Shown piece after piece: positions 13,724 to 37,327 of a stretch of DNA of 64,000 nt (its first letter is position 1; each line of letters starts with the position of its first letter). Origin of the DNA: an uncultured Chitinophaga sp. (GTDB lineage Bacteria; Bacteroidota; Bacteroidia; Cytophagales; Cyclobacteriaceae); contig CABHOK010000007.1 of assembly GCA_902168205.1 (NCBI GenBank), positions 558,001-622,000 on the forward strand. Direction: 5' to 3'. The notes under the pieces were generated by a model. It searched no databases. It was not told where the DNA came from and saw only the letters and a list, made by a program, of their open reading frames with translations. A program made the translations under genes and the position numbers.

Positions 13724-13827
13724 ACGTTGTTTATAGCTACAGAAGCTCGAAATATTAATTTTTTATTTCTAATATTCGCTGTAAAAAACGGCCAATCAGA
13801 AAAAGATCATTCATTTATCCTGCTGAC

Positions 13828-14757: not shown

Positions 14758-15501
14758 TTACGCTACCTGGTTCAATACCTTGAAGGCCTGCTCAGGCGAG
14801 GAAAGAAAAACTTTATAGAGATCGGCAGTCATGCCTACGTGAATTTCATATACATTATTCTGTATAGCCGTCAGCAACTGACTTGACACCTCAGACGAAG
14901 GCATTCCACGCGTTTCGCCTCCTATATCTTTTGCCATGTCGGTATTAACGAGTGGCGGCATCAATTCAAAAACTTTTACAGAAGTATTGGTAAGTGCACT
15001 TCGTAACACCTGTGTATAGGCATGCAACGCAGCTTTACTGGCCGAGTAGGTAGGAATAACAGTTCCGGCAGCAAACACCACAATGGAAGTTACATTTATG
15101 ATAGCCGCTGTTGGCTGGGCTTTCAATACCGGGAGAAGGTGCTCCGTTAATCGCACTACCGATAAGTAGTTGATCTCTATTTCTTCGTTGGCTATGCTAA
15201 AGGTATCACTTCCTTCGTGCAGATTATGGACGTGGGCAACACCGGCATTGTTCATGAGTACGCTGAGATCACTGAACTCATTTTTAATTCTTTTCGCGAG
15301 ACTTATGACGTCACTCTCCTTTGTAACATCACAACGGATCGGGGTAACATTTTTCAAAGCCTGCGATGCTTTCAATAATTTGTCTTCGTTTCTTCCGGTA
15401 ATGATTACGCGATTACCAAGTGCACTCAGAGACTTGGCTACTTCAAAGCCGATGCCGGAACCACCACCGGTAATCAGCACTGTTCTGTTTTCAATATTCA
15501 T
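14758..15501 (-). CDS. Short-chain dehydrogenase (DltE-like oxidoreductase)
   Basis: A 247-residue SDR starting MNIENRTVLITGGGSGIGFE. TGGGSGIG and VIITGRNEDKL (Arg after beta-2, NADP type) bind the cofactor; LMNNAGVAHVHNL, the Ser in INVTSIV, and the active-site YSASK follow. The C-terminal part (VFELMPPLVNTDMAKDIGG, GMPSSEVSSQLLTAI, EIHVGMTADLYKVFLSSPEQAF) matches the DltE/YvaG-type oxidoreductases rather than FabG. It lies 40 bases downstream of another SDR gene on the same strand, which itself is downstream of a TetR gene with flanking operators, so TetR control of both is likely. Confidence 0.88.
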   Translation of the reverse strand: MNIENRTVLITGGGSGIGFEVAKSLSALGNRVIITGRNEDKLLKASQALKNVTPIRCDVTKESDVISLAKRIKNEFSDLSVLMNNAGVAHVHNLHEGSDTFSIANEEIEINYLSVVRLTEHLLPVLKAQPTAAIINVTSIVVFAAGTVIPTYSASKAALHAYTQVLRSALTNTSVKVFELMPPLVNTDMAKDIGGETRGMPSSEVSSQLLTAIQNNVYEIHVGMTADLYKVFLSSPEQAFKVLNQVA

Positions 15502-21693: not shown

Positions 21694-21716
21694 AAGGCAA
21701 ATTTATTTGTAAACAT

Positions 21717-21834
21717 TGGAAGATGAGATAATTGAAAGATTAGAAGATTGCAAGATTGAAAGATTAAGGAGATTGTGCCAGCGCTATATTTCAATTTTAA
21801 ATTTTGAACATTTCAATCTTCTACCCCTCCAATT
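21717..21834. repeat. GATTGAAAGATT purine-rich direct and inverted repeats (left flank of the MoxR-bpX block)
   Basis: Bases 21717-21772 carry repeated GATTGAAAGATT / AGAAGATTG units; 21790-21834 carry the complementary pattern (ATTTCAATTTTAAATTTT ... ATTTCAATCTTCT). The two halves can form an imperfect stem. A clearly related array lies at 28656-28790, at the far end of the five-gene block. Repeats of this type are common between genes of Cytophagales in my experience. Confidence 0.7.
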
Positions 21835-21886
21835 CCACGATCTTGTAAGTTTTCCGTGTAAAGTGCTTAAAATCCGGGAGTAGTTC

Positions 21887-22588
21887 ATGCATTTCAAATT
21901 TGCTATGCTCCGCAGATCGCGCCATCTTGCAAATCTGTATATGGCAATAGATAACCAATTTCTGAAAATGATCGCGCAGCTCCGGCAACACGAGGAAGTG
22001 ATGCTATATGGAAATCTCCTGCATGTTACACAACCCGATCTGGAAGCGGTAATCCATTTCCTGGAACAAGAGTATAATCGTGAAGTATTACAGTATCCAT
22101 CCGGTGCTCCCCCGTTCCATGCAGCTGCAGCCTCGTGGTCTGCACAACTTGTATACAAGGCTGCACAGTTGATGCTACACCGCGAAAATAAACCGGAAGA
22201 TCTCCGCGCTTTACTGCCGGTATTTACCCAAGAGCAAAATGATTCCGCAATTTTATCGGCTGATCTATGCCTTCGATTTATACCAGCGATGCGGGAGCAT
22301 TTACACGTAATCGATCCCGAGGATCCGCTACTCGTGTTACTGGATGAATTATTGATACAGTGGCACTACTCCGGTATATCTGCCGCACTTGACATTTCAA
22401 AACTTGACTTGGGCCCGATTGTCTCATCCTCTGCTCTTCTGACGCTATATACCGAACGTATTATATACTATCGAAAAACAGAACTGGCTAAACATCCGCT
22501 CTTCCTTGAAACAATTCGTGCATCACTGGGTATATATGGCGATACCTTGTGGAAAGAATTTAAAGACGTTATTATTCCTGAACCATGA
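21887..22588 (+). CDS. Unknown helical protein, first gene of the MoxR-bpX operon
   Basis: A 233-residue protein, mostly helical by sequence pattern (DNQFLKMIAQLRQHEEVM, LEAVIHFLEQEYNREVLQ, WSAQLVYKAAQLMLHRE, DELLIQWHYSGISAAL). The ATG at 21887 gives the full frame; an ATG at 21941 (MAIDNQFLKM) is an alternative that removes 18 basic residues. I do not recognise a family. Its stop overlaps the start of the MoxR gene by four bases (ATGA), so it is translationally coupled to it. By position it corresponds to the small helical partners encoded next to MoxR in MoxR-vWA-beta-propeller ternary systems. Its role is unknown; a scaffold or client-adaptor role is an inference. Confidence 0.65.
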   Translation: MHFKFAMLRRSRHLANLYMAIDNQFLKMIAQLRQHEEVMLYGNLLHVTQPDLEAVIHFLEQEYNREVLQYPSGAPPFHAAAASWSAQLVYKAAQLMLHRENKPEDLRALLPVFTQEQNDSAILSADLCLRFIPAMREHLHVIDPEDPLLVLLDELLIQWHYSGISAALDISKLDLGPIVSSSALLTLYTERIIYYRKTELAKHPLFLETIRASLGIYGDTLWKEFKDVIIPEP

Positions 22589-23712
22589 ATACTATTGACA
22601 ACCTGAACAAGGTTCTGACATTTGTAAAAAACTCTTTCGTTGGAAAAAATGAAATTGTTGATCTGCTGGGTATAAGTTTGCTGGCCCGTGAAAATGCTTT
22701 TCTTCTGGGCCCTCCCGGCACAGCGAAGAGCGCTATTATCCGGCAGCTTTCAGATTGTATTCAGGGCGGAAAGAACTTTGAATATTTACTCACGCGTTTC
22801 ACAGAGCCAAACGAGATATTCGGTCCATTTGATATTCGTAAACTGAAAGAAGGCGAACTCATTACCAACACCGATGGTATGATGCCGGAAGCATCCATGG
22901 TGTTTCTGGACGAAATCTTCAATGCCAACAGTGCTATATTGAACAGCTTGCTCATGGCATTGAACGAACGCATTTTCAGACGCGGTAAAGAAACCCGTAA
23001 ACTTCCTGCGCTCATGTTCGTAGGCGCGAGTAACGTGTTGCCTGAAGACGAAGCGCTGAATGCGCTGCTTGATCGCTTCCTGATCCGCGTGCGTTGTGAC
23101 TACGTTGATACTGATTTACTGGAAGAGGTATTGCTCGCAGGCTGGAATCTGGAGAGTCGGTCTGTTGAGCGTCCGGTAATAACACCACAGGAAATTACCG
23201 AGCTGCAGCAACGTTGTCGCCAGGTAGACCTTGCTCCTGTCCGGAAACAATTTGTAGATGTAGTCCATACGTTGCGTAACACCGGTATAAAAGTTTCGGA
23301 CAGGCGCGCAGTAAAGATTCAGAACCTGATGGCCGCGAGTGCACTGATCAGCAACCGGACGCAGGCGATTCTTTCTGACTTGTGGGTGTTGAAATATATA
23401 TGGGACACGGAAGAGCAGATCGAAATACTGGCAGGTATCATTGACTCGATCATTGAAAAAGATACAGCACTGCAGCCACATCCGCAGGCACACTATAACA
23501 AAACTCCCCAGGCAGAAGAGCTGATCAAAGATGTACAGCTGCTTGCTTCACGTTGGGAGTCAGGTAACCTCTCGTTTGAAGAACAGAATGTTATCAAGGA
23601 TAAACTCCGTTATGTGCAAACGCGCTGTAACTGGATCAAAAAGAATGAGCACAAAGATCATATACAGGCTGAAATAGAACAGTTATGGAAAAAGATGCTG
23701 GAGGCAGTATAG
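22585..23712 (+). CDS. MoxR-type AAA+ ATPase (RavA-like branch)
   Basis: A 375-residue AAA+ protein. Residues 42-49 are the Walker A GPPGTAKS; Walker B is VFLDEIF with Asp109/Glu110; sensor-1 sits in FVGASNVLPEDEALNALLDRFLIRV, which also carries the arginine-finger region. The pre-Walker-A FVGKNEIVDLLGISLLARENAFLLG and the RFTEPNEIFGPFDI stretch are the MoxR/RavA signatures. The all-helical lid with DRRAVKIQNLMAASALISNR follows, then a RavA-like C-terminal extension of about 80 residues. MoxR ATPases act as remodellers that activate or insert cofactors into partner complexes, usually with vWA-domain proteins. Here the fourth gene of the operon encodes a vWA-like protein. It overlaps its upstream neighbour by 4 bases and the downstream gene by 28, so it is coupled to both. 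Confidence 0.9.
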   Translation: MNTIDNLNKVLTFVKNSFVGKNEIVDLLGISLLARENAFLLGPPGTAKSAIIRQLSDCIQGGKNFEYLLTRFTEPNEIFGPFDIRKLKEGELITNTDGMMPEASMVFLDEIFNANSAILNSLLMALNERIFRRGKETRKLPALMFVGASNVLPEDEALNALLDRFLIRVRCDYVDTDLLEEVLLAGWNLESRSVERPVITPQEITELQQRCRQVDLAPVRKQFVDVVHTLRNTGIKVSDRRAVKIQNLMAASALISNRTQAILSDLWVLKYIWDTEEQIEILAGIIDSIIEKDTALQPHPQAHYNKTPQAEELIKDVQLLASRWESGNLSFEEQNVIKDKLRYVQTRCNWIKKNEHKDHIQAEIEQLWKKMLEAV

Positions 23713-24428
23713 TATATTTCCTTTCGATTCCGCAGGCCTATAAAAATGATCTGGCGCGCATCCGGCAATGGACCAATCTGAAAGCCGGCTTCGATGAAAA
23801 TATCATTTGGATCAGGGATCTGAATTACCAGCAGGTATACTCGACCGAAGTACGTTCGATACCTTTTGCCACGGCATACTATGAGAAAGGTAATCAGCTT
23901 TATTTACTCGATCGGAAATTACCCGAACGTAATGTGCCTGGATTGCTGTGGACACCAATAGACCGCGCCCTGCCGGTTAAGCTTCCATCGCTCAACCATA
24001 ATTATTTTGGTATACATGATACGATCAGCATTACAATGGTACCATCGGATCGGGAGACCGATGCTGTTGCCATGATTGTATCACTTGATGTGCTCAGTCA
24101 CTATATAGAGAACGCACCCGCTGTTCGTCTCGAAAAAATACGTTGGGCTGTTCTCGGTTCCAATCAGGCATTCCTGTTAGGCACTCCGTTGTTGCCGATT
24201 CCGGGTACAACGGTATGGTCGCGCAAGGATCTGCTTTTTCCTACCGGGTACGATTTTGAATTACATTCTGTATCGGATGTGATCCAGAAGAAAATCAACC
24301 CGGGAAGAGACTCCTGGATTCTTTGGGACACCGATAACTCTTATCAACTGATTTCGAAAGAAAGTCTCGTACCTTTATCCCGGAGCTCATTTCGCGTTAC
24401 GATCACCAATCCACTACAGCAATCGTGA
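23685..24428 (+). CDS. Unknown protein of the MoxR-bpX system (bpX-type partner)
   Basis: A 247-residue protein starting MEKDAGGSIVYFLSIPQAYKN, overlapping the end of the MoxR gene by 28 bases and ending in a GTGA overlap with the next gene. The composition is beta-rich with aromatic and Pro-rich turns (LLWTPIDRALPVKLPSLNHNYFG, FLLGTPLLPIPGTTVWSRKDLLFPTGYDFE). That pattern fits the family-specific partner domains named bpX in MoxR-vWA-beta-propeller ternary systems described by Aravind and co-workers. I cannot say which bpX class it is. No signal peptide or membrane segment is visible. Inference: a cytoplasmic component recognised or remodelled by the MoxR-vWA pair. Confidence 0.62.
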   Translation: MEKDAGGSIVYFLSIPQAYKNDLARIRQWTNLKAGFDENIIWIRDLNYQQVYSTEVRSIPFATAYYEKGNQLYLLDRKLPERNVPGLLWTPIDRALPVKLPSLNHNYFGIHDTISITMVPSDRETDAVAMIVSLDVLSHYIENAPAVRLEKIRWAVLGSNQAFLLGTPLLPIPGTTVWSRKDLLFPTGYDFELHSVSDVIQKKINPGRDSWILWDTDNSYQLISKESLVPLSRSSFRVTITNPLQQS

Positions 24429-26977
24429 CACCTGCAAATTACTTTCAATCGTATCAGAATTATTTCTGGCAGTGGGAAGATACCGCTGAGGTGATCGCTA
24501 TACCAAAAGAGTCTACGATCGCTTATCGAGAGCTTCTCGGAGAGATTATAGGTAAACTATATCCGCAGGGCTTACCTCCTTTCGGTTCGTTGCTATTGGT
24601 GATGATCGCTACGAATCCTAATGGTTCTGCGTCATTGGATGCCGTATATAGTATTGTTCAGCAATCCGGCTCCCTGCCTAAAAACAGTGAAACTACTTTG
24701 GCAGGCGCGATTGGCTTTCTGAAACTCTTAACAGAATTACCGAAACCTTATAAGGAAGGCAAACGCAGGTTGTTGCTGTTACAGGCGCTATTCGAACAAT
24801 GCCACAATATTTTATCGTTGAAAGCTTCTGCTGGTGTACAGGCCCAATACCATCAACGCTTATTTGAAAACGGACTTCAACCAGTTCCCCTGCAGGATAG
24901 TGTATTTGATAAAGACTTCAGACCACTGAGTATACTGGCTGGTAAATTTCAAAGTACACAGGAAATCATCAATCGCATTGCGGCCTTGCCGGATACACAG
25001 CAGTATGATATCAAGTTTGATGAGACACCCGGAGATGATACGCCTGCTCCGAAAACGGATCTCGTAGATGAGCTCTTGCAGAGCTATAAAACATTTGCTG
25101 TGGGCTCACTGATTCGCTGGCTCTGGAGCGGACTAAATATACCTGTACACAGCACTTTGCCGAGCCAGCAGCCGCTGGGTGGCTTCTCTGATCTGACCAA
25201 CAAGGGAGACTTCGATAAACTTCTTGTTTCTGAATTTGCGTATGACGATCTTCTATTCCTATCGCGACTCGCGAATAACGAAGCCCTGTATATTCACCGC
25301 GAAGTTCCTCCCACGCATAACAACCTGCAACGACTCATCCTGATCGATGCTACGCTGAAGAACTGGGGCAACCCGAAGGCTATTGCTTTTGCTATAGCCA
25401 TCGCGATTGCACGTCATCCCAAAACAGATATAGGTTGTTCGGTGGTAGTATTGGGAAACACTTCTTATCACACGGTATCCATCGAAACAATCGATTCAAT
25501 CATTGATGCCGTACAGATCGTTGAAGAAGGCCTTCATCCGGCACACAGTCTCGAAGCATTTTTAAAAGAGAACAAAGTTGATTCGAACAGAGAGGTATTC
25601 TTTATAACGGAACCGTCTACAGTAAAGCAATCGGCCCTGCTGAAAGTATTGAACGAGCATCAACAACGTATCCACTATCATATATATACTGATATTGCCG
25701 GCAATGTAGATATATACAAGCGACAAGGCAGCAGCAAACGGCATGTACAACACATCCTCCTCCCGCTTGAGACACTCTGGAAAAAACCAGCGTCACTCAA
25801 GGCGGAACAGCGTGTGCAGCAACCTGGTTTTCGTGTAAATTATCCGATCCTGCTGAAAGATGACGCATCTGCAAAAGTAAGGCTGGCTCCCGATGGAGAG
25901 GTCTTCCTGTTTACGAAAGAACAAACTATACTACGACTATTCGACAAGGCAACGGAACGTCACGAACGCGGCTGGGATCTGATATACTGTAACCTACCCT
26001 TTCATTCTGATCATTGCGAAATCGGTATTTCGGAAAATCGCCATCACGTTGCACTGATCTTTAACAGCAACACACGCGAACTGCTTCTGCTTGACTTGCA
26101 TACTGCAGAGAAGAAGATTATACCATTCCGGGAATGGAAATTTACTACACGGCCTTCCTTTATATTTGATGACGGTAATTTTGTTCATTCCAATTCCGCT
26201 GGAGCATGGAGTATAGCAACAGACGGTACTGTCAAGCGCATCGATACGATCGACTCCGGCAAATTTCAACAACGGGAAACCGCATTGCAATCGGCTTCAA
26301 AATATACCTGGGCTCATTCCGTTCTAAAAAATGTAACGAAAGTATTTATTAATGATGGCGGAGAACTCGTATTCAAGCTTCACACACTGAGACTCGTAGG
26401 GCAAAGCATGCACATTAAATTTATGCAATGCCGTGATTTAACCTCGAAAGCCACGGCAGAGCTTAACGATAATAATATATTTGTATTTATTGATGGCAGC
26501 TCCGTTGAAGTTAATCGCTCCGGCCTGTTAATATTGAACAGCAGTGACAAGCAGATCCCAACGATATATATACCTACTGCGCTCGACAGTTCACTAGGGT
26601 TGGCGACAGATTCTGAATTTGCGGGTAACACCTACTATTACAAAGAGCCCGTGTATGAAGTAATTCTGAAACGGATCGGTGAACGTAAATTAGAAAGCGT
26701 AAAAACCCTGAAAGAGCTGGCTAATTTCTCGCTGATGGACGCAAAGTCGATGATTGACAATGAAAATCATGCCGTTATTTTTACCCATTGCCTAAGACAA
26801 AAAGCACTTGCGTTTCAAAAGACCATGACTGAGATCGGAAACGATGTTGAATTGAGGGAAATAGCAGGCTCAGCAGAGCTGCAAAAAATAACATTGGAAG
26901 AATTTTACAAGAAGTACCTCGGGCGCTATATAAATACAATTCTAAATCATGGAGCTGAAGCTGATACCAACCGATAA
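24425..26977 (+). CDS. vWA-like / beta-propeller protein with L7/L12-like C-terminal domain
   Basis: An 850-residue protein that starts with GTG at 24425, inside the stop of the previous gene. Residues about 1-280 are helical. About 295-440 resemble a von Willebrand A fold (RLILIDATLKNWGNPKAIAFA ... SVVVLGNTSYHTVSI ... EVFFITEPSTV), but the metal-ion site is degraded: the usual DxSxS is DATLK at 308-312. About 470-730 carry beta-propeller-like blades (VRLAPDGEVFLFTKEQ, HHVALIFNSNTRELLLLDL, FVHSNSAGAWSIATDG). About 745-835 look like the ribosomal protein L7/L12 C-terminal fold (YEVILKRIGERKLESVKTLK ... FSLMDAKSMIDN ... VELREIAG). The 3' end overlaps the next gene by 29 bases. It matches the vWA plus beta-propeller component of MoxR ternary systems. 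Confidence 0.72.
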   Translation: MTPANYFQSYQNYFWQWEDTAEVIAIPKESTIAYRELLGEIIGKLYPQGLPPFGSLLLVMIATNPNGSASLDAVYSIVQQSGSLPKNSETTLAGAIGFLKLLTELPKPYKEGKRRLLLLQALFEQCHNILSLKASAGVQAQYHQRLFENGLQPVPLQDSVFDKDFRPLSILAGKFQSTQEIINRIAALPDTQQYDIKFDETPGDDTPAPKTDLVDELLQSYKTFAVGSLIRWLWSGLNIPVHSTLPSQQPLGGFSDLTNKGDFDKLLVSEFAYDDLLFLSRLANNEALYIHREVPPTHNNLQRLILIDATLKNWGNPKAIAFAIAIAIARHPKTDIGCSVVVLGNTSYHTVSIETIDSIIDAVQIVEEGLHPAHSLEAFLKENKVDSNREVFFITEPSTVKQSALLKVLNEHQQRIHYHIYTDIAGNVDIYKRQGSSKRHVQHILLPLETLWKKPASLKAEQRVQQPGFRVNYPILLKDDASAKVRLAPDGEVFLFTKEQTILRLFDKATERHERGWDLIYCNLPFHSDHCEIGISENRHHVALIFNSNTRELLLLDLHTAEKKIIPFREWKFTTRPSFIFDDGNFVHSNSAGAWSIATDGTVKRIDTIDSGKFQQRETALQSASKYTWAHSVLKNVTKVFINDGGELVFKLHTLRLVGQSMHIKFMQCRDLTSKATAELNDNNIFVFIDGSSVEVNRSGLLILNSSDKQIPTIYIPTALDSSLGLATDSEFAGNTYYYKEPVYEVILKRIGERKLESVKTLKELANFSLMDAKSMIDNENHAVIFTHCLRQKALAFQKTMTEIGNDVELREIAGSAELQKITLEEFYKKYLGRYINTILNHGAEADTNR

Positions 26978-28673
26978 GAATACTTTTCCGTTAAAGGGAC
27001 TGCTGATCAAAAGTGCTTCAGCTGTTCAATGGCTCAAAGAGATCCAGTCATTGAAACTAGCATTGTCAGATATACAGCTATATCCTATACCGGATGTTGT
27101 TCCCAATACGATCTGGGGTTGTCTCATCATCTCGCGCGAGAAGATGTCCACAAACAACATTGGTCGCCATGAACTGTGCCAACACGTTACGGATAATCTA
27201 TATATACCGGAACGTTCTACTGTTTTTCCGATGCCATCTGCTGCAGAACTGGAAAAACTCTTCGTTTCGGGAATATATATAGTACATCCTGATTTTGGCT
27301 GGGTTGAATTAACCGAAGAAGTAAATCTTCCGGATATAATTACCGTATCTACTGCAAAATCTGACTTGGTAACGAAGCCTGCTCTTTCTGTGTATATCCC
27401 GCGTACGATCAGAAGCTTTCAGATCCATTCGCTTCCTGCCGAAGAAGTGTTGAAGAACCTGGAAGAACAGACATTTCCGAAACACAAAGCGCTTGAAAAC
27501 AAACCGCTGAATCTTTGGGAGAAGATGCGACTCGGGTTCTATAAATTTATATTTGCAAACACACCAGGTTCTCCGCAGGGAGGAACAAGTAACTCTTCTG
27601 CGAGTTCTGCTTCGAAGCTGGAATTGTTCTTTCAAAAACTATTCAAGAACGACAAGCAATGGAACCGTGTACAACAGGATTTTAAAGACCTGGAGGAGCG
27701 TAACAAAAAGAATATTGAGCGCCTGATGGACCTTTTGAAAAAAGATCCCGATCTCGCCTTGCAGTACGCCATTCCTCTCAGTGAAGGTGGTGTTACGCGT
27801 GGCGGCACAACAGCTCAAATTGATTTTGCCAGACGCTGGTTTGACTTTTCGCTCTTTGGTAATACCACCTCGGGTGGTTCATCCGGTTCGATTGAACTTG
27901 GCGATCATTACTATGATCTGCAACGACAGTATCATGCAACCGCTGAAGATCTGATCAAACGAAAAGAATATCAGAAAGCAGCATTTGTATATATGAAGTT
28001 GTTAAAAGACTATAACAAAGCTGCCGGAACATTGGAAGAGGGCAAGCACTACCAGGAAGCTGCCACTATTTTTCTAAAACACGCTGGCAATAAGCGCAAG
28101 GCTGCAGAGTGTTATGAGAAGGGAAATATGACGAGCGATGCCATAGCACTTTACAAAGAATTGAATGAAAATGAAAAAGTGGGCGACCTGTATATGACAC
28201 TCGCGAACAAACCGCAGGCACATATATACTATGAAAAAGTAGCCACCGACTATAAAACACGCGGTCAGCATGTAAAAGCTTCACTGGTATACCGCGGTAA
28301 AATGGAAAATTCACCAGCAGCACAGTCCACTTTACTGGATGGTTGGCGAATGCAGAAAGATGCTGCCAACTGCTTGCAGAATTACTTTGCCCATATTGCG
28401 GATATAGACGAGTTAGGAAAAGAGATCAATACACTCTATCAGAATGAAGTAGCATCGCATAATCGTGAGGTCTTTTTACAGGCTCTGAAACATGAGTATA
28501 AAAAGAAACACAAACTGCAGGACGTGATCCAGGAAATGGCTTACGAAATCATCGCGATGCAAATCCCGGTAAACCGATCTATAGTCTCTGAGCTCAAAGA
28601 TTTCAATCCCGGCAACCAGGAGCTACTGAAGGACACCCTTCGTTTTAAGGTTAACAAGAGATTGAAAGATTGA
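26949..28673 (+). CDS. TPR-like repeat protein of the MoxR-bpX system
   Basis: A 574-residue protein. The N-terminal about 200 residues (ELKLIPTDKNTFPLKGLLIK ... LYPIPDVVPNTIWGCLI ... AELEKLFVSGIYIVHPDFGWVELTEEV) are beta-rich and likely a bpX-type domain. A low-complexity Ser/Gly linker (about 215-225) follows. From about 330 to 500 helical repeats of TPR/clathrin-like type appear: HATAEDLIKRKEYQKAAFVYMKLL, AAGTLEEGKHYQEAATIFLKHAG, AAECYEKGNMTSDAIALYKELN. These are protein-interaction modules. The last codons and stop (RLKD) lie inside the right-hand GATTGAAAGATT repeat array. The reading is that the TPR part docks substrates for the MoxR ATPase. Confidence 0.7.
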   Translation: MELKLIPTDKNTFPLKGLLIKSASAVQWLKEIQSLKLALSDIQLYPIPDVVPNTIWGCLIISREKMSTNNIGRHELCQHVTDNLYIPERSTVFPMPSAAELEKLFVSGIYIVHPDFGWVELTEEVNLPDIITVSTAKSDLVTKPALSVYIPRTIRSFQIHSLPAEEVLKNLEEQTFPKHKALENKPLNLWEKMRLGFYKFIFANTPGSPQGGTSNSSASSASKLELFFQKLFKNDKQWNRVQQDFKDLEERNKKNIERLMDLLKKDPDLALQYAIPLSEGGVTRGGTTAQIDFARRWFDFSLFGNTTSGGSSGSIELGDHYYDLQRQYHATAEDLIKRKEYQKAAFVYMKLLKDYNKAAGTLEEGKHYQEAATIFLKHAGNKRKAAECYEKGNMTSDAIALYKELNENEKVGDLYMTLANKPQAHIYYEKVATDYKTRGQHVKASLVYRGKMENSPAAQSTLLDGWRMQKDAANCLQNYFAHIADIDELGKEINTLYQNEVASHNREVFLQALKHEYKKKHKLQDVIQEMAYEIIAMQIPVNRSIVSELKDFNPGNQELLKDTLRFKVNKRLKD

Positions 28674-28790
28674 AAATTATAAGATTGGAAGATTCTAAAA
28701 TTAGAAGATTACAGCACAACTATATTTGCATCAATCGTTTACGACTTACCTAATTTTCCAATATTTCAATTTTCCAATCTTCAATTTTCC
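28656..28790. repeat. GATTGAAAGATT repeats between convergent genes (right flank of the MoxR-bpX block)
   Basis: Bases 28656-28712 carry AAGAGATTGAAAGATTGAAA and AGATTGGAAGATT-type units; 28750-28790 carry the complementary AATTTTCCAATATTTCAATT pattern. The array covers the last codons of the TPR gene and ends just before the stop of the convergent helicase-associated-repeat gene (28795). It can form a stem in both transcripts and is related to the array at 21717-21834. Confidence 0.72.
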
Positions 28791-28794: not shown

Positions 28795-30597
28795 TCACAA
28801 CTTATCCAACCCTACGCGAAGAAGCGTTGCTTTTCTTTCGGGAGGTAACTTTTTAAAGTTCTTTCTTTGCTGGTATATCCAACTGTATAAAGGCGTATGA
28901 TGAGGAACGGGCTTCTTCATCTTTTTGTATTCCAGGTATTCTTCTATCCTTTGCTTCCATCGTTTTTCGGAGATTTCGTTTTTCCAGGAGAATCCCAGTG
29001 CTGTCAGTTTTCTCTTTTTATCAGCAGAAAGCTTTTTCATGCGTTGCCCGTTTACCCAACTAGCAAGTGATTGATTAGCCGGATATTTTTGTGGCACATC
29101 ACAATGTCCATGTTTATTCTTGAAGACAACCAGTGCTTCAAACATTCGCTCCCATCGTTCACTCCAGTAATGTCCGCTGCGATCCCAGAGAAAATGTATA
29201 GCATTCAGCTTCTCTTTCTTATAGGAAGACAATTTACCTTTACTATGCAATTGTAGTCGCACCCATTCGTCCAGTTCTGTATGTTCTTTCAGTTTGATAT
29301 GATATTGCGTGCCATGCTTTTTCTTAAAGGCAGCAAACTTTGTATACATCACATCCCACGTCTTCAGTTTCTCCGCTGCGGCTTCCCCTTTCCATATAAA
29401 TCCAAGCGCAGTTAATTTCTGATCGCGAATTTTATTCAAACGATTCTCGGCCTTGAGCCGTTTCTGTGTTTGTATCCATTCATAGAGACGCGCTTCGGTG
29501 CGCGGCACAATCAAATGCTTATGCTCTGTCTTGAAACTCTTTAGTGTATGATACATACTCTCCCACGTCTCGTGGAAAAGTTCATGTGGCCATTTCACGC
29601 CAAGCTGTTCGAGCTTCTTTCGCTTCTCACGGCTGATCCTATTTTTATCGCGCTTGTTTCGTTGCAGCCATACAGCGAGTTTAAAATCTTCGCGTTGCTT
29701 TACCTGGCAATGGCCATGCTTCGATTTATAGGTCTTCAAGCGGGTATACATTTCTTCCCAGCGCTGTTCGGCAAAGTCTTCTTTGTCCCATGCAAAGCCT
29801 ATAGCATCCAGTTTCTTCCTGCGTTGTGACGATAACCTGTTCTGACCTTTCATCTGTGTCTCCATCCACAAGCCCAATTGGAAATGATCTTTACGCACCT
29901 GGATTCTGTCGATGTGTCCGTTTGTTTTTTTATACTGAACCAATTGCTTATAACGTATATCCCATGAGTCTTCACGCAGTTTCAGTATATCTTCTTTCCA
30001 GAGAAAACCAACCTTGTTCAGAAGCTTTACGCGATCGGCAGAGAGTATATTTCGCGTCTTGCTGCTCCGCTGTCGGGAAACCCAACTGCCTAATGCTTTA
30101 TTTTCTTCGAAGCCCTGAGGAACTTTGACATGACCATGTTTCTTTTTAAAGTCCAGCAGCTCACGATACATTTCGCTCCACTGTATATCTTTATGCGTGC
30201 GGGTCTCCCAGTCAAACTGCACACTGTTTAGCTTTTGTATTTGTGCCGGTGTAAGCACTGCTTTGGACAGTCGCTGATTGGTAATCCAATCAAACAACGA
30301 CTCAAGTGCTGGTTCATTTGAAGAGACATAGGTATGTCCATGCTTCCGGTAAAAACTTTCAAGTTTACTGAACATGGTATTCCAATCGCTTGTGGCATGA
30401 AATTGAAATCCAAGCTTCATCAGCGCGTTATAGGATTTGGCTGGCAGTCGCTCCGGATGTTTGCGAATGTTTTCAAGCCACCGCGCCAGCAGTTTATCTT
30501 TACCTTCGGATGGGACATTGAAACTACCGTATTTTTGATGATAGGCTTTTAGCTTCCTGAAATTCTCTTTCCAAACTTTTGAATCTTCCTTTACCAT
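28795..30597 (-). CDS. Helicase-associated (HA) domain repeat protein without a helicase
   Basis: The ATG at 30597 (MVKEDSKVWKENFRKL) gives 600 residues. The entire protein is about nine tandem copies of the helicase-associated domain, each near 65 residues with the pattern W..MY..L..FK..HGH..VP......L..W...QR......L...R...L...GF.W. Examples are YRELLDFKKKHGHVKVPQGF, YTRLKTYKSKHGHCQVKQRE and FEALVVFKNKHGHCDVPQKY. The ninth copy is degenerate. This domain is normally appended to DEAD/SNF2-type helicases, where it is thought to bind nucleic acid; here no helicase part is present. It converges with the MoxR-bpX operon and shares the repeat array between them. Very Lys-rich, consistent with nucleic-acid binding. 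Confidence 0.85.
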   Translation of the reverse strand: MVKEDSKVWKENFRKLKAYHQKYGSFNVPSEGKDKLLARWLENIRKHPERLPAKSYNALMKLGFQFHATSDWNTMFSKLESFYRKHGHTYVSSNEPALESLFDWITNQRLSKAVLTPAQIQKLNSVQFDWETRTHKDIQWSEMYRELLDFKKKHGHVKVPQGFEENKALGSWVSRQRSSKTRNILSADRVKLLNKVGFLWKEDILKLREDSWDIRYKQLVQYKKTNGHIDRIQVRKDHFQLGLWMETQMKGQNRLSSQRRKKLDAIGFAWDKEDFAEQRWEEMYTRLKTYKSKHGHCQVKQREDFKLAVWLQRNKRDKNRISREKRKKLEQLGVKWPHELFHETWESMYHTLKSFKTEHKHLIVPRTEARLYEWIQTQKRLKAENRLNKIRDQKLTALGFIWKGEAAAEKLKTWDVMYTKFAAFKKKHGTQYHIKLKEHTELDEWVRLQLHSKGKLSSYKKEKLNAIHFLWDRSGHYWSERWERMFEALVVFKNKHGHCDVPQKYPANQSLASWVNGQRMKKLSADKKRKLTALGFSWKNEISEKRWKQRIEEYLEYKKMKKPVPHHTPLYSWIYQQRKNFKKLPPERKATLLRVGLDKL

Positions 30598-30969
30598 AAG
30601 TACAACAACAATGTTCCGGATTGTTTGGTAATCTTCAACTTTTACAGGGACCACCGGTTAAAAAATTTGCCAGAACGCTGAATACAGATTTATAAAGCTA
30701 TATATACCTATAAATTACTATACCCTAACTGACTCCTTGTAAAAGGTAAACTTCCGTGAGGCTAAATGTATATAAAAATATCACTTCAAAATATACCCTA
30801 AATACAAGGATAAAACCTATACATCTATAGTACACAAACAGGTATATAGAAAAGAAAAATAAATACTAAATACGTACGTGGCTACACTATGCCGATCAAG
30901 CAATTATATAAAAAGAAAAGCACCGATAACCAAATGCTATCGGTGCTTCTGAAGAGGTAATAATTTGTA
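30598..30969. other. AT-rich intergenic region, no gene seen
   Basis: About 370 bases upstream of the HA-repeat gene and downstream of a DinB-like gene. Rich in TATA and AATA words, with no open frame I can support. Its only clear element is the terminator hairpin at 30918-30948. Confidence 0.6.
30918..30948 (-). terminator. Intrinsic terminator after the DinB-like gene
   Basis: AAGCACCGATA and TATCGGTGCTT pair perfectly over 11 bases with a 9-base loop. On the minus strand the stem is followed by TTCTTTTTATA, past the stop at 30970. Confidence 0.9.
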
Positions 30970-31697: not shown

Positions 31698-32384
31698 ATG
31701 GCTATCGTGTCGTTTCATCTGAATTCCAATTTGTACTTGCGTGACCCCCAGTCAAGTACGTTGGGTCAGAAAATCATTCAATCGAGTATTAAAATGATCG
31801 ACAAGACCGGGGCAGATGATTTTACATTTAAAAAGCTGGGCTCCGAGATCGGCTCTACCGAAGCATCTATATACCGGTACTTTGAAAACAAGCACCGGTT
31901 GCTGTTATACCTGATTGACTGGTATTGGACCTGGCTGGAATATAAAATAGACTACAAGATTCAAAATATAGCGAGCCCCATAGAGCGTTTGCGAATGTGT
32001 ATCCGTATGCTTGTAGAGGAAAAAAAGACAGACCCCGATATACCTTTCGTAGATGAGCAGAGACTTCAGCGAATCGTTAACACCGAGTTTGAAAAAACGT
32101 ATCTGACACGACAGGTTGATACAGACAACAAGGAGGGACTTTTCCTTCCCTATAAATCGCTTTGTAAAAAGATTGCCGGCATTCTGAAGGAGATCAATCC
32201 GCAGTATCCGTTTCCAAACTCGCTCGTAAGCACCATTGTGTTGAGTGCGAATCACCAGCTATACTATGCACAGCATCTCCCTTCCCTGACGGATATAAAA
32301 ACAGAATCCCGGCAAAAGCACGACAAGCTTGTCGAGTTCCTGGAGACTATGATACTGAATACGATAAATACAAAGATTAAATGA
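31698..32384 (+). CDS. TetR-family transcriptional regulator
   Basis: A 228-residue regulator. The helix-turn-helix reads KMIDKTGADDFTFKKLGSEIGSTEASIYRYFENKHRLLLYLI, a clear TetR N-terminal domain (about 20-70). The C-terminal ligand-binding part has no recognisable subfamily motif. Its stop overlaps the start of the ABC gene by four bases (ATGA), so it is the first gene of the export operon and presumably represses it through the palindrome just upstream. TetR genes leading tripartite export operons are common for drug or metabolite efflux. The ligand is unknown. Confidence 0.9.
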   Translation: MAIVSFHLNSNLYLRDPQSSTLGQKIIQSSIKMIDKTGADDFTFKKLGSEIGSTEASIYRYFENKHRLLLYLIDWYWTWLEYKIDYKIQNIASPIERLRMCIRMLVEEKKTDPDIPFVDEQRLQRIVNTEFEKTYLTRQVDTDNKEGLFLPYKSLCKKIAGILKEINPQYPFPNSLVSTIVLSANHQLYYAQHLPSLTDIKTESRQKHDKLVEFLETMILNTINTKIK

Positions 32385-34555
32385 CCAACCACTCAATTAT
32401 ACGGATACTGCGCGAAGCTGCACTCTTGTTGAAGCATGAATTCAACCCGGCCGACCTGCGCTTTGTAGAGATCAACAATCGTCACTACACGAAAAGTGAA
32501 TTTGGTGAATTCAAGAACGATCTGATCGAAGCGGGCAGCAAGATGCGTATGCTTTTCCTGGAGCAAAATATACCCGTTGCAGCATTACCTGATGTGGTAA
32601 AAGATGACAACGTACTGGTGCTCGTGTTTCACGAAACGCAACAGCAACTCATTCCTGTCCTCATTTCCGGTGACCGAAAGAAAATAACAGTCGATGCGCT
32701 GCAAGACGATACGCAAGTTTCAGTTCCAACGGATGTCTCCGGCCTTACTTCGCTCTACGCTAACCAGGATGACGTGCTCAGCTATATACTCTATCCGTAC
32801 AAGAACCTGGTGAGCGACTATGCGTATGAGGGCGATGTTGTGCCCGAGCCTATGAGTCCGGTAAGGAGATTTTTCAGGTTACTCTCCACAGAGCGTAAAG
32901 ATATACTATATATACTCTTCTACTCCATCGTAGTCGGTCTTATCGGCCTGGTGCTGCCGGTTGGCATTCAGAATACAGTGGAACTGATCTCCGGTGGTGT
33001 GTTTTTCAGTTCGGTATACTTGCTGATCGCGGCCGTTATCCTGGGTGTATTGTTCACCGGAATATTGCAGATCGTGCAGATAAGCCTCGTTGAACACTTG
33101 CAAAGGCGCGTATTTACCAAAGCCGCTATAGAATTTGCATTTCGTATTCCGCGCATTCGTATGGAATCGATTCTCAACAACTATGCCCCTGAACTTGTCA
33201 ATCGTTTCTTTGATGTAATTACGTTACAGAAGGGACTGCCAAAAATGTTGATCGATCTTTCTTCGGCTGCGATTCAAATTCTGTTCGGACTTATCCTGTT
33301 GTCTCTTTATCACCCCTTCTTTGTATTCTTCAGTCTTATACTGGTGTTTGTATTATTCCTGATCTTCTGGCTTACCGGATCAAATGGATTGAAATCATCC
33401 ATCAATGAATCAAAGTATAAATATAAAGTTGTACAATGGCTGGAAGAACTTGCCCGCTCCATCAATTCGTTCAAGCTTGCCGGTAACACCGATCTGCCGA
33501 TTCGCAGAACCGATAACACCGTCAATAATTATCTCAAATACAGGAAAGCTCACTTCCAGGTACTCATCACACAATTCTCTTTCATAGTAATTTTTAAAAC
33601 GGCAGTAACTGCGAGCTTGCTTATACTCGGTACTATACTGGTTGTTAACCGCGAAATTACATTGGGACAATTTGTTGCCTCCGAGGTGATCATCATTCTC
33701 ATTCTGAATGCCGTTGAGAAAACAATCACCTATATGGACGTTATCTACGACCTGTTAACGGCAGTAGACAAGATCGCGCAGATAACGGATCTGCCCTTGG
33801 AGAAAGTTGGCGGACTCGATTTCCAGCGACATGCTGTAGCTGGTTACGCGATCGAGTTGAAACAACTGCGGTACCGGTATCCTGAAAAACCAGAACATGT
33901 ATTGAATGGAATTGATCTCCGCATCAACTCGGGTGAGCGTATTTGCATAGCAGGTCCTGGTAATGCTGGTAAAACAACGCTTACCAACCTGATTGCGGGT
34001 ATACATACTGACTACGAAGGTATTATTACCATCAACAATTATTCTTTGCGCGACCTCGACATCCGTCACCTTCGAGATAGTATGGCCAAAAATATTTCAC
34101 CGGAAGATATATTTGATGGCAGTATACTGGAGAATATTACACTGGGCAGTGCTACACGAACCGTTGAAGATGCTATACATGCAATACGCAAGGTAAAGTT
34201 GGAAGATGAGATCAACCGTTTACCTGAAGGATTGAATACTCACATTGTGAGTGGCGGAAAAGGATTTTCAAGTTCGTTCATTCATAAACTTATACTGGCA
34301 CGCTGTCTTGCAAAAAAACCAGCGCTCATCATTCTCAACGATTTCTTCTCCGGGCTGAAGCGACAGGAGAAACTCGATCTGCTTCAATCGGTGATCAATG
34401 CTGAAAACCGGTATACATTAATCGCGGTATCCAATGATCCGTTGATCATGGCAGCGTGCGATCGGGTTATACTTCTCAACAACGGACAAATTTCTGATGA
34501 AGGTCACTTTGATGAACTTCTGAAAAAAGGTACGATCAATAACTACATTGATTAA
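32381..34555 (+). CDS. ABC transporter, fused permease-ATPase, with degenerate ATPase site
   Basis: A 724-residue protein. The N-terminal about 150 residues are soluble and may be a decayed peptidase-like domain. The transmembrane domain spans about 165-450 (YILFYSIVVGLIGLVLPVGIQ ... FGLILLSLYHPFFVFFSLIL). The ATPase domain (about 490-720) keeps Walker A GPGNAGKT (525-532) and SGG of the signature (624-626). However, the Walker B Asp is Asn653, the catalytic Glu is Asp654, and the H-loop His is Asn685 (AVSND). That predicts weak or no hydrolysis alone. It is operonic with HlyD- and TolC-type genes, as in type I secretion systems. Confidence 0.88.
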   Translation: MTNHSIIRILREAALLLKHEFNPADLRFVEINNRHYTKSEFGEFKNDLIEAGSKMRMLFLEQNIPVAALPDVVKDDNVLVLVFHETQQQLIPVLISGDRKKITVDALQDDTQVSVPTDVSGLTSLYANQDDVLSYILYPYKNLVSDYAYEGDVVPEPMSPVRRFFRLLSTERKDILYILFYSIVVGLIGLVLPVGIQNTVELISGGVFFSSVYLLIAAVILGVLFTGILQIVQISLVEHLQRRVFTKAAIEFAFRIPRIRMESILNNYAPELVNRFFDVITLQKGLPKMLIDLSSAAIQILFGLILLSLYHPFFVFFSLILVFVLFLIFWLTGSNGLKSSINESKYKYKVVQWLEELARSINSFKLAGNTDLPIRRTDNTVNNYLKYRKAHFQVLITQFSFIVIFKTAVTASLLILGTILVVNREITLGQFVASEVIIILILNAVEKTITYMDVIYDLLTAVDKIAQITDLPLEKVGGLDFQRHAVAGYAIELKQLRYRYPEKPEHVLNGIDLRINSGERICIAGPGNAGKTTLTNLIAGIHTDYEGIITINNYSLRDLDIRHLRDSMAKNISPEDIFDGSILENITLGSATRTVEDAIHAIRKVKLEDEINRLPEGLNTHIVSGGKGFSSSFIHKLILARCLAKKPALIILNDFFSGLKRQEKLDLLQSVINAENRYTLIAVSNDPLIMAACDRVILLNNGQISDEGHFDELLKKGTINNYID

Positions 34556-34559
34556 AAGT

Positions 34560-35858
34560 ATGCTGCGACTATCAACACATCGAATCGACAAAATGGTAAA
34601 GGAAGAAAATCTATACTCGCTGCGTGCATTGAAGCGGCCGGCAGCAGGTATACTGATCGCTAAATGGCTAATGGCACTCGGTGCTATATTTATAGTATTT
34701 CTCTTTTTACCATGGCAACAGAATATACGGGGCACCGGAAAAGTTACCGCGCTGAATCCTGCAAATCGTCCGCAAACGGTACAGGCTGTTATAGCGGGGC
34801 AAATACAAAAGTGGCACGTGCGTGAAGGAGAACTTGTAAAAGCAGGCGACACGATTGTGACGATACGCGAAGTAAAAGAGAAATATTTCGATCCGCAGTT
34901 ACTGCCTCGCCTGCAGGAACAGCTTACTGCGAAGAAGAGCAGCCTGGCATCCAAAAGCGAAAAGGCAGAAGCACTGCAACGACAGATCACCGCCTTGCAA
35001 ACAGGTATGCAACGCAAGATCGAACAGGCCACTGCCAAGCTCGAAGCAGAACGTGTAAAATTACAGAACGCTGAGAACCAGTATCAGCGAAATAAAAAAT
35101 TATATGAAGCCGGAAATATACCGCTCACTAAATTTCAGGAGATCGAGTATAAATACCAGGGCAGTGAAGCAGACTACAGGAACGCAACCCTGGAAATTGC
35201 CAGACTTCGTGCTGAGTACCAGGAGAAGATCAGTAAATCTGAATCGGACCTGAGTGCTACGCAGGGTGAAATATTTGAGACACAGGGCGAGATATCCAAA
35301 CTCACCAATGAATATACCAACACGCAGATACGAAGCAGCCAGTACCAGATCACGGCTCCGCAGAGTGGCTATGTGGTACGCGCGATGAAAGCAGGTATAG
35401 GTGAAACTATAAAAGAAGGTGACGCTGTTTGCACCGTGATGCCTGAAGTGACTGACCTGGCGGTAGAGATGTATGTAAAGGCTATGGACATGCCACTGAT
35501 CAGCAAGGGACGAAAAGTGCGCGTTGAATTTGACGGATGGCCCGCGTTGCAATTCTCCGGATGGCCGAGTGTTTCCGTAGGAAGCTTTGGCGGAACCGTG
35601 GAAGTAATTGATTATGTAAGCTCACAGCCTGGTGAATTCAGAATGCTTGTTATACCGGACAAAGCAGAAGAGGCATGGCCGCAGCAGTTGCGCGTTGGTT
35701 CAGGTACACGCGGGTGGGTAATGCTTGAAAATGTACCCGTATGGTATGAGATCTGGCGACAACTTAACGGCTTCCCTCCCAGCCTGTATAAAGCACCGCT
35801 GCAGGATGCACTCCCTTCCAAAGGCGAGAAGAAAGAAACAGAAGCGAAAAACAGTTAA
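34560..35858 (+). CDS. HlyD-family periplasmic adaptor
   Basis: The ATG at 34560 is used (a TTG at 34548 overlaps the previous stop). The 432-residue product has one N-terminal membrane anchor (GILIAKWLMALGAIFIVFLFLPW), then a lipoyl-like domain starting IRGTGKVTALN and QPTVQAV-like strands, a long coiled-coil hairpin (about 130-260, QEQLTAKKSSLASKSEKAEALQ ... ISKSESDLSATQGEIFETQG), the second lipoyl half (YQITAPQSGYVVRAMKAGIGETIKEGD) and a beta-barrel domain. This is the membrane-fusion protein linking the inner-membrane ABC protein to TolC. Only 4 bases separate it from the ABC stop, so it is co-translated. Confidence 0.9.
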   Translation: MLRLSTHRIDKMVKEENLYSLRALKRPAAGILIAKWLMALGAIFIVFLFLPWQQNIRGTGKVTALNPANRPQTVQAVIAGQIQKWHVREGELVKAGDTIVTIREVKEKYFDPQLLPRLQEQLTAKKSSLASKSEKAEALQRQITALQTGMQRKIEQATAKLEAERVKLQNAENQYQRNKKLYEAGNIPLTKFQEIEYKYQGSEADYRNATLEIARLRAEYQEKISKSESDLSATQGEIFETQGEISKLTNEYTNTQIRSSQYQITAPQSGYVVRAMKAGIGETIKEGDAVCTVMPEVTDLAVEMYVKAMDMPLISKGRKVRVEFDGWPALQFSGWPSVSVGSFGGTVEVIDYVSSQPGEFRMLVIPDKAEEAWPQQLRVGSGTRGWVMLENVPVWYEIWRQLNGFPPSLYKAPLQDALPSKGEKKETEAKNS

Positions 35859-35878
35859 CAACGGTATACCTACACGTT

Positions 35879-37327
35879 ATGAAGAAAGTATGGCTGATCA
35901 TGTTGTTGGGTATATGCGGTAACTCCGCTCTGGCGCAACAGGGAAACGATTCGATCTTTGTTTTGCCGGATACGGCAAAGCCCGTTACCCTTGAAAACTT
36001 TTACCAATTGGTGATACGTTACCACCCGGTGGTGAAACAAACCAATTTACTTTCGGATGTAGCCAAACAGGAGATACGTTTGGCGCGTGGCAATTTTGAT
36101 CCGAAAATTGAAAGTGAATTCCTGCTGAAGCACTATAACAATACAGAATACTATCGCCTGTTTAACGGAGGTATAAAGTTTCCGACTGCCAGCCCGGTAA
36201 CTCCTGTCATTGGTGTTGAGCGGAACACCGGGGATCGTCTGAATCCGGAGCACTATATATCCGGTGAATATAATTACCAGCAGCTCTATGCGGGTATATC
36301 ATTACCATTGGGCCAGGGGTTGCTTACCGATGAACGCAGAACGGCTCTGAAGCAAGCCGAATTGTTCCGTGATATGATGGAAGCCGAACAGGTAAAACTC
36401 ATTAACAAGTTATTACTCGAAGCAGCCAAAGATTACTGGCAATGGTACTACAGTTACTATAACTATCGCCTCGCCACGCGCACAACGGCTGTTGCCGAAG
36501 AAATATTCAGAAGAGTAAGAATGAATTTTGAGGGTGGCGAACTGGCTACGATGGACACGGTTCAGGCCAATATAACCTTGCTGGAACGACAAGTAAATAT
36601 GCAGGAAGCACTGCTTGCCTTGAAGAACAGTACCATTAAGATATCAACCTATTTATGGGACAGCACGATAAACCCGGTAGACCTGTCGTTGCAGCATGCT
36701 CCGGTTGTCCCATCATCGTCTATGTTACTCTCGAAGAATATACTGGAAGAATTGATCAGTGAAGCAAAGTTGAATCACCCGGAATTACGGAAACTCAATT
36801 TGAAAATTCAGCAACTTGAACTCGACAAGCGACTTGCCTCGGAGTATATGAAACCGCGTCTCAACGTCTCATATTATATGCTGAACCAGCCTTTTACTCC
36901 CGAAGGTACCAGCAACTCGTTTGTGCTGGACGACAACTATAAACTCGGCATTGACTTCTCTATACCTATATTTCTGAGAAAAGAACGAGCGAAGGTAGCG
37001 CAGACGAGACTGAAGATCTCGAATACAACATACGATCGTGACATTACCCGCAGGCAAATCATTAACGATATACAGGCCGCGTACAATCAACTGCTCAATA
37101 ACGGAACCATCCTTCAACAGCAGCGTGCCATGGTTGATAATTATAACCGCTTAATGAGTGCCGAACTGCTAAACCTTGAAAATGGGGAGAGTGACTTATT
37201 CAAGATCAACGTTCAGCAGGAAAAACTTTTCAATGCACAATCCAAACTTATCAAGACTATTGCGGAGTATGAAAAGCAAAAGTCGGTATTATACTGGTCT
37301 GCCGGAGTAAGGCCATTGGCATTCTAA
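35879..37327 (+). CDS. TolC-family outer-membrane efflux protein
   Basis: A 482-residue protein with a signal peptide ending SALAQ. It shows the two OEP repeats of TolC channels: long helical segments (LTDERRTALKQAELFRDMMEA ... LLEAAKDYWQWYYSYYNYRLAT ... AEEIFRRVRMNFEGGELATMDTVQANITLLE, and YNQLLNNGTILQQQRAMVDNYNRLMSAELLNLENGESDLFKINVQQEKLF). The mature part starts with a Bacteroidetes-type extension. It is the last gene of the TetR-ABC-HlyD-TolC operon, 20 bases after the adaptor gene. A terminator follows at 37343. Cargo is unknown. Confidence 0.92.
   Translation: MKKVWLIMLLGICGNSALAQQGNDSIFVLPDTAKPVTLENFYQLVIRYHPVVKQTNLLSDVAKQEIRLARGNFDPKIESEFLLKHYNNTEYYRLFNGGIKFPTASPVTPVIGVERNTGDRLNPEHYISGEYNYQQLYAGISLPLGQGLLTDERRTALKQAELFRDMMEAEQVKLINKLLLEAAKDYWQWYYSYYNYRLATRTTAVAEEIFRRVRMNFEGGELATMDTVQANITLLERQVNMQEALLALKNSTIKISTYLWDSTINPVDLSLQHAPVVPSSSMLLSKNILEELISEAKLNHPELRKLNLKIQQLELDKRLASEYMKPRLNVSYYMLNQPFTPEGTSNSFVLDDNYKLGIDFSIPIFLRKERAKVAQTRLKISNTTYDRDITRRQIINDIQAAYNQLLNNGTILQQQRAMVDNYNRLMSAELLNLENGESDLFKINVQQEKLFNAQSKLIKTIAEYEKQKSVLYWSAGVRPLAF

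Follow-up and report, generated by a model that had tools for sequence, protein, structure and literature searches.

The window analysed here is a stretch of 64,000 nucleotides from an uncultured Chitinophaga sp. (GTDB lineage Bacteria; Bacteroidota; Bacteroidia; Cytophagales; Cyclobacteriaceae; contig CABHOK010000007.1 of NCBI GenBank assembly GCA_902168205.1, positions 558,001 to 622,000 of the forward strand). Between positions 21887 and 28673 it contains a five-gene operon that, judged by its protein families, is a beta-propeller MoxR-vWA ternary system, a class already described by Kaur et al. 2020 (PMC7159879), and these five genes are one exchangeable or mobile cassette, gained and lost as a block. 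The conflict role of such systems is a prediction. The best explanation, to which we assign a probability of roughly 0.55, is that the cassette is a horizontally exchanged conflict system, probably directed against invaders, in which a propeller would recognize the target and the MoxR ATPase and vWA-like region would remodel a bpX3-TPR arm.

Identity of the operon and its gain and loss as a cassette

An earlier note on this DNA had described five same-strand genes with overlaps of 4-29 bases and had matched them to the MoxR-vWA-beta-propeller ternary systems, and both points hold. The five plus-strand open reading frames (ORFs) overlap successively by 4, 28, 4 and 29 bases, and in every one a family exceeds its curated Pfam cut-off: in gene order, bpX4 (225 bits), bpMoxR (337), bpX2 (286), bpX0 with bpX1 and Ribosomal_L12, the L7/L12 C-terminal domain (110, 69 and 36), and bpX3 (147). 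The check that the note had proposed, a profile search for the bpX domains, therefore recovers bpX0 to bpX4, the domains that mark membership of the class, all above cut-off. We identify the locus as the system of Kaur, Burroughs, Iyer and Aravind because the bp-prefixed Pfam families bear its name and the paper's description fits. In its available parts, PMC7159879 lists the beta-propeller-containing ternary systems as MoxR-vWA subsystem 4, places the propeller behind the vWA domain, with an L12 insertion in several bacteroidetes, and mentions a P-loop that is often GXXXTAKS, additional linked genes and a third component with TPRs; this component has a variable part, and its transmembrane (TM) segment is given as lying within the variable region. 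A literature search that covers subscription journals poorly found no paper with 'bpMoxR', nor, among the papers listed, any experiment on the beta-propeller subsystem. The note's view that tight overlaps imply strict stoichiometry goes further than the overlaps alone support.

Natural empty sites delimit the cassette (loci and genomes carry our own L and G numbers). The same-genus genome G005 has a collinear neighbourhood where 15 genes match with proteins 54-92% identical (80-92% for 11 of them), and in which a GDPD gene directly adjoins a gene for helicase-associated (HA) repeats and the cassette is absent. Homology with the window ends at 21710 and restarts at 28764; G005 has about 0.45 kb of other DNA at this site, which in our reading resembles the end of a TonB receptor, and between the window's breakpoints lie the five genes only. 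In Flavobacterium, the flanks of G622 match those of the holder G611 (8 genes, with proteins 84-99% identical), and precisely the five genes are missing, 51 bp standing where G611 has 7.1 kb. In G368, G544 and G630 an RNase T-like gene adjoins a PhyH gene and the cassette is absent. It is because the five-gene order is constant, empty sites occur at unrelated places in G005 and in Flavobacterium, and bpX2 is patchily distributed that we regard the operon as a single cassette.

Several observations concern the borders of the cassette. Its two flanks carry tracts of AAGATTGAAAGATT-like units: allowing up to two mismatches, the window holds 11 such units against 1.0 expected, 9 of them within the two flanks. 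One exact copy lies at the G005 empty site (L073, 8651-8664), and 14 exact copies occur genome-wide against none of the reversed pattern; the units are possibly a recombination substrate or an ordinary intergenic repeat. At L176 and its relatives in Flavobacterium, the spot between the RNase T-like gene and either the PhyH gene or the next, 592-residue gene is occupied by the cassette, by a transposase-like ORF together with an AAA_14/DUF4143 gene (in G646) or by a 421-residue ORF of no assigned class (in G670), or is empty; it is a candidate exchange hotspot. In the window the HA-repeat gene (28795-30654) encodes a 619-residue protein with nine repeats, in which Pfam finds no helicase domain; it is also present in G005 and thus lies outside the cassette. 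Beyond it, 3 kb from the cassette, 31698-37327 is a second insertion, which comprises an ABC transporter, HlyD and outer membrane efflux operon (Pfam) and a putative regulator-like gene, with no match in the collinear G005.

The gene order was followed in 94 loci, 14 from whole-genome searches and the best 80 from a contig scan with a MoxR alignment, which became 90 when 4 same-contig duplicates were dropped. All five genes occur in the order bpX4-MoxR-bpX2-gene 4-gene 5 in 82 of the 90, and a contig end truncates each of the other 8. Since MoxR was the query that led to most loci, finding it in them is expected; independent evidence comes from 11 loci found with bpX2, all of which have an adjacent MoxR gene, and the orthologues without MoxR that would have spoken against the identification did not appear. 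By ORF calls alone, 78 of 90 loci have five genes, 77 in the exact order, L088 carrying a further MoxR-like ORF outside them. A tblastn search of the 12 others recovered five genes in order in L060, L137, L146 and L157 (in L157 with bpX4 in two pieces) and, in L059, L070, L091, L094, L100, L108, L132 and L135, the leading genes as far as the contig reaches; L060, L091, L137, L146 and L157, which ORF calls had made incomplete, regained their missing parts. In L060 (G004) bpX2 homology is 29% over 220 residues, but a full-length ORF between MoxR and gene 4 was not called, perhaps because a stop or a frame error interrupts the gene. A same-strand ORF lies within 40 bp upstream of the operon in only 12 of 84 cases and within that distance downstream in 8 of 79; the operon is therefore usually closed.

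The cassette is rare and scattered. At family level bpX2 occurs in 3 of 148 genomes and at phylum level in 10 of 395, each count including the source genome; of 150 Flavobacterium-genus genomes 10 have it. Strong bpMoxR matches occur in four of the seven genomes of the window's own genus, including the source. In a quick tree of MoxR, bpX2 and the N-terminal part of gene 4 (83 rows, no bootstrap) the window pairs with Chryseosolibacter histidini (SH-aLRT 99) and then with same-genus G006, while same-genus G003 forms a very long branch elsewhere, its placement unsure; this tree appears to conflict with host kinship, in favour of horizontal exchange. The gammaproteobacterium Glaciecola amylolytica (L092) has a complete five-gene cassette, with a MoxR 77% identical to the window's and an Endonuclease V-like gene 1.8 kb downstream. 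Among plasmids a MoxR search at E<=1e-60 returned one, from Hymenobacter yonginensis (55% identity). Carriage by phages was considered and set aside, the 14 matches on viral contigs (25-39% identity) being read as ordinary MoxR/RavA-like proteins.

The five proteins

The second gene encodes, as the earlier note had it, a MoxR AAA+ ATPase. Its P-loop, GPPGTAKS, is a GXXXTAKS variant that is invariant in 15 of 15 sequences, and at E<=1e-10 its profile matches only RavA in the PDB (9e-53, profile positions 19-292). Against the NCBIfam ATPase RavA equivalog it scores 183.5 bits, below the cut-off of 681; NCBIfam added nothing specific to any of the five proteins, and the defence models of PADLOC gave on the operon solely a weak AAA+ match to gene 2 (0.0036). 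In the bpX4 protein S124, D126, R130, D146 and W222 are invariant among 54 sequences, and its profile finds no relative among PDB sequences. The 28-base overlap between MoxR and bpX2 is probably real, because its length is identical in 51 of 87 loci and because in 39 of the 87 the bpX2 frame has no start codon from -4 to +12 of the MoxR stop; given these counts a start-codon artefact is unsupported. The overlap is not required, since the two genes are one base apart in 16 of the 87 loci.

Gene 4 had been described as a vWA-like and beta-propeller protein, and both folds are predicted. Besides the bpX0 and bpX1 matches, a motif of the metal-ion-dependent adhesion site (MIDAS) type is half kept: among 75 aligned sequences D308 and a serine or threonine at 310 are present in all, and the conserved second aspartate expected near residue 396 is absent. 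Profiles do not show the folds themselves: similarity to ivWA is weak (E=0.074 only), VWA_3 matches one of 38 members, also weakly (E=0.058), and the propeller region has no internal repeat and no PDB or Pfam propeller match, with Hemopexin at 0.078 in one of 38 members. The position of the predicted propeller, between the vWA-like region and bpX1, does fit. The L12-like domain occurs in 20 of the 75 sequences, the window's among them; the single other PF00542 match in the source genome, on contig C18, is presumably ribosomal L7/L12.

The fifth protein is TPR-like, as the note had proposed. TPR models score below their cut-offs, yet alongside the bpX3 match there are a modelled helical solenoid and a profile match to the TPRs of IFT144/WDR19 (E=1e-6, 89 positions). 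The AlphaFold2 model (mean predicted local distance difference test score, pLDDT, 81; predicted template modelling score 0.55) has an alpha/beta bpX3 domain at about residues 1-125, a low-confidence linker and a solenoid mostly at a pLDDT of at least 90, and contains no propeller. By a simple hydropathy scan none of the window's proteins has a TM segment. Among 82 other loci with gene 5 called, 38 likewise have none, 7 have one, 16 have two in a single ORF and 21 have a split gene with five or six. We do not treat a TM segment in the third component as universal, because 38 of these 82 loci also lack one. A hypervariable bpX3 N-terminus was not seen in this lineage, conservation of residues 1-160 being 0.44-0.54 against a protein mean of 0.53.

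Table 1. Features of the cassette, with positions in the window
Feature	Position	Strand	Basis
Cassette extent	21711..28763		DNA without counterpart at the collinear site of same-genus G005
Left flank tract of AAGATTGAAAGATT-like units	21728..21820		Pattern count
Gene 1: bpX4 protein, 233 residues	21887..22588	+	PF19920, 9.5e-67
Gene 2: bpMoxR AAA+ ATPase, 375 residues, RavA-like	22585..23712	+	PF20030, 4.2e-101, score 336.7, cut-off 27
Gene 3: bpX2 protein, 247 residues	23685..24428	+	PF19918, 2.9e-85; start nested 28 bases inside MoxR
Gene 4: bpX0 - vWA-like - predicted propeller - bpX1 - L7/L12 C-terminal-like, 850 residues, GTG start	24425..26977	+	Pfam
bpX0 domain, gene 4 residues 30-183	24512..24973	+	PF19915, 1.7e-31
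vWA-like region, gene 4 residues 285-470	25277..25834	+	PMC7159879 (available parts) and motif; without profile support
Counterpart of the variable, predicted beta-propeller, gene 4 residues 439-671	25739..26437	+	Conservation and pair comparisons; propeller predicted
bpX1 domain, gene 4 residues 684-741	26474..26647	+	PF19917, 3.9e-19
L7/L12 C-terminal-like domain, gene 4 residues 745-810	26657..26854	+	Pfam Ribosomal_L12 (PF00542)
Gene 5: bpX3 - linker - TPR-like solenoid, 574 residues, no TM segment	26949..28673	+	PF19919, 5.4e-43
Gene 5 residues 298-309, counterpart of the variable two-TM hairpin site of L123 (Flavobacterium)	27840..27875	+	Alignment, hydropathy
Gene 5 helical solenoid, residues 320-574	27906..28670	+	AlphaFold2 model; profile resembles IFT144/WDR19 TPRs
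Right flank tract of AAGATTGAAAGATT-like units	28658..28781		Pattern count

Block replacement in gene 4 and gene 5

Variation within the operon is unevenly distributed. Mean conservation is 0.82 for MoxR (15 sequences) and 0.47-0.53 for the other proteins (53-75 sequences, the samples being different), and gene 4 is least conserved at residues 561-680 (0.28-0.34). In 11 close pairs the ratio of non-synonymous to synonymous substitution rates (dN/dS, NG86-type) is 0.01-0.04 for MoxR, 0.07-0.17 for bpX4 and 0.09-0.20 for bpX2. In windows pooled over six pairs the uncorrected ratio of the corresponding proportions (pN/pS) is 0.04 in the vWA core, 0.32-0.59 in gene 4 codons 480-780, the propeller part, and 0.65 in gene 5 codons 240-300.

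Close pairs locate this variation. The Flavobacterium loci L123 and L128 have a median identity of 96% over 237 windows of 50 bp (the operon and 2.5 kb on each side), and all 12 windows below 80% fall in two blocks of about 300 bp: 13451-13750 in gene 4, equivalent to residues 536-619 of the window's gene 4 and within the predicted propeller, and 15051-15350 in gene 5, the two-TM hairpin of the TPR protein. Between L097 and L103, in 30-residue windows, gene 4 is 77-100% identical over residues 1-450 and 20-73% beyond, and gene 5 is 83-100% identical with dips to 67% at residues 61-90 and 241-300. The first half of L097 gene 4 is closest to L105 (96%) and its propeller to L111 (70%), the sister loci being outside the best four, a pattern that by sequence comparison is one of allele exchange in the propeller. 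More generally, when all pairs of 78 loci are compared, 22 reach a MoxR identity of 96% or more, and among these mean identity is 72% in the propeller, 78% in gene 4 after residue 700 and 89-94% in bpX4, bpX2 and the two vWA parts; the propeller falls below bpX4, bpX2 and both vWA parts in 17 of the 22, pairs that are non-independent and mostly from Flavobacterium. The close pairs L124/L129 and L145/L147 have no diverged block, and the window compared with L078 gives merely a broad dip in the propeller-equivalent region.

It could be argued that propeller and hairpin blocks are swapped together, as both differ in L123/L128. L097 and L105, though, differ chiefly in gene 4 after residue 450, their hairpin windows being 80-97% identical, whereas L103 and L105 keep gene 4 residues 451-630 (87-100%) and differ after residue 630 and in the hairpin (50-70%); a coupled swap was thus rejected, and the two blocks can move separately. 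No diversity-generating retroelement (DGR) was identified, although no systematic search was made; RVT_1 occurs in 2 of 126 Flavobacterium and 2 of 127 other flank proteins. In our own reading of these alignments the propeller may be a swappable recognition module. A fuller version, which we hold tentatively and at somewhat less than even odds, is a two-part allelic machine, in which the propeller would be an interchangeable specificity module recombined between near-identical operons, the TPR-protein membrane hairpin an independently exchanged output or second recognition site, and the RavA-like ATPase the constant motor. The hairpin is absent in nearly half of the examined loci, including the window, and under the two-part proposal the gene 5 arm of such loci would be soluble.

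Proposed working, rival explanations and known systems

In the conflict-cassette explanation the RavA-like MoxR ring and the vWA-propeller protein would form a chaperone/adaptor pair, held together with bpX2 and bpX4, and the propeller would be the recognition module for the target. Target binding would lead MoxR to spend ATP, through the half-MIDAS vWA, on remodelling the bpX3-TPR protein, the putative output arm. Many relatives in Flavobacterium and Chryseobacterium have a TM-bearing arm, which suggests action at the membrane, while the window's TM-less arm may be soluble or peripheral. That the proteins form a complex, that the propeller is the sensor and gene 5 the output, and that the target is a phage or other invader is what we infer. 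A number of results weigh against this explanation. Neither a vWA nor a propeller fold in gene 4 is seen by any profile used, and PDB profile searches of genes 1, 3, 4 and 5 found no recognizable effector enzyme; a hidden one was rejected, the profiles of gene 4 (best E=0.18), gene 5, bpX4 and bpX2 (best E=1.3) having no significant enzymatic match. A search of the phage collection gave no bpX2. Every dN/dS value stays below 1, and positive selection is therefore not shown. The variable blocks come from comparisons of Flavobacterium operons, and the window's TM-less lineage has no sufficiently close relatives. Nor is there a clear defence island around the cassette, as PADLOC neighbours are sparse: for the 127 of 331 flank ORFs scanned from outside Flavobacterium and Chryseobacterium, the first 25 models listed, of 83, were all reverse transcriptases, in two proteins, and 40 window ORFs gave, outside the cassette and with one protein per model, mad3 (1.2e-29), C3a194 (1.1e-15), mad8 (1.4e-10), AbiLi (4.5e-7) and ATPase-Toprim (3.8e-6).

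The main rival, which we consider unlikely, is a RavA-ViaA-like maturation or membrane-homeostasis chaperone that serves a host complex and has no role in conflict. The restriction of strong PDB matches to RavA, the predicted membrane nature of gene 5 in many relatives and the lack of a recognized effector are consistent with it, and RavA-ViaA acts, according to the available parts of PMC9489729, on lipids and aminoglycoside sensitivity; rarity, patchiness, empty sites and exchanged propeller alleles would, however, be unusual for a housekeeping chaperone. Neighbouring genes raise instead the idea of a stress system linked to nucleic-acid damage or repair that works with RNA ligase, RNase T-like exonuclease, Endonuclease V-like or phosphoesterase proteins, which we regard as improbable. 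The flank scans covered 126 of the 196 ORFs from Flavobacterium and, for other groups, 127 of 331; the 125 flank ORFs from Chryseobacterium were clustered only. The Flavobacterium flanks yielded RNase_T (16), Band_7 (8), RLIG1 (7), WGR (7) and Endonuclease_5 (4), and those of other groups Por_Secre_tail (7) and every other family at most four times. Across 150 Flavobacterium-genus genomes an RNA ligase is present in 8 of 10 cassette holders against 2 of the 140 others, where one match is partial, as counted with a Flavobacterium protein query since the RLIG1 Pfam model matched nothing there, controls included, and an RNase T-like gene in 10 of 10 against 20 of 140, both counts being uncorrected for the kinship of holders. 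An Endonuclease V-like cluster (Pfam checked on four of eight) lies near the operon in eight loci of several lineages, namely Flavobacteriales, a Chitinophagales metagenome-assembled genome and Glaciecola, and in five of them is at most 3 bp away or has a one-base overlap with it. Yet G622, which lacks the cassette, retains both RNA ligase and RNase T, and this may make these genes a mere chromosomal neighbourhood, and none of the RNA ligase, RNase T-like, Endonuclease V-like and phosphoesterase genes was seen beside the window's cassette. Less probable still is inter-bacterial competition or self/non-self recognition through exposed variable parts: the two-TM hairpin and the propeller are both variable, and the hosts are often surface-living Bacteroidota, but the cassette has no secretion or immunity gene between its breakpoints and, in the hydropathy scan, the proteins of the window lack TM segments.

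As a separate observation, a SWIM zinc finger gene cluster (Pfam on L112) adjoins the cassette in eight Flavobacterium loci (L064, L067, L103, L105, L112, L114, L124 and L129), seven times downstream on the opposite strand within 93 bp and once upstream. Several of these loci also have a WGR-DUF6493-DUF7824-DUF7825 gene (Pfam on L124), and the cluster may be a second system.

The window's operon resembles the beta-propeller ternary systems, as the available parts of PMC7159879 describe them, in its five bp-family proteins, L12 domain, TPR-like third component and TAKS P-loop. It differs in that its third component has no TM segment and no modelled propeller, and in that the bpX3 N-terminus is conserved about as well as the rest, the least conserved part being the predicted propeller of the vWA protein. 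RavA-ViaA of E. coli likewise pairs a RavA-like AAA+ protein with a partner described as vWA (PMC9489729, in the parts available), but the window has five genes with bpX domains and its RavA match is partial (19-292) and sub-equivalog. Gene 4 is weakly similar to ivWA (E=0.074) of the FtsH ternary system, for which the same parts of PMC7159879 note a divergent vWA and a TAKS P-loop; the window's operon has no FtsH or ubiquitin-like gene. The VMAP ternary systems share a MoxR-vWA core and a variable putative sensor and are, in the available parts of PMC10907252, diversified by DGRs, whereas variation here takes the form of block replacement, with no DGR identified and none sought systematically. 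The likeness of the gene 5 profile to the IFT144/WDR19 solenoid concerns the TPR part only and may be a general TPR likeness. New here are the single exchangeable cassette, the block replacement in the propeller and hairpin of relatives and the TM-less TPR protein of the window. The precise natural empty sites offer ready comparisons of gain and loss, and propeller exchange between near-identical operons points to the part that may govern recognition, making the system testable. If the conflict-cassette explanation is correct, an AAA+ chaperone with a swappable propeller would represent a new recognition logic for bacterial immunity.

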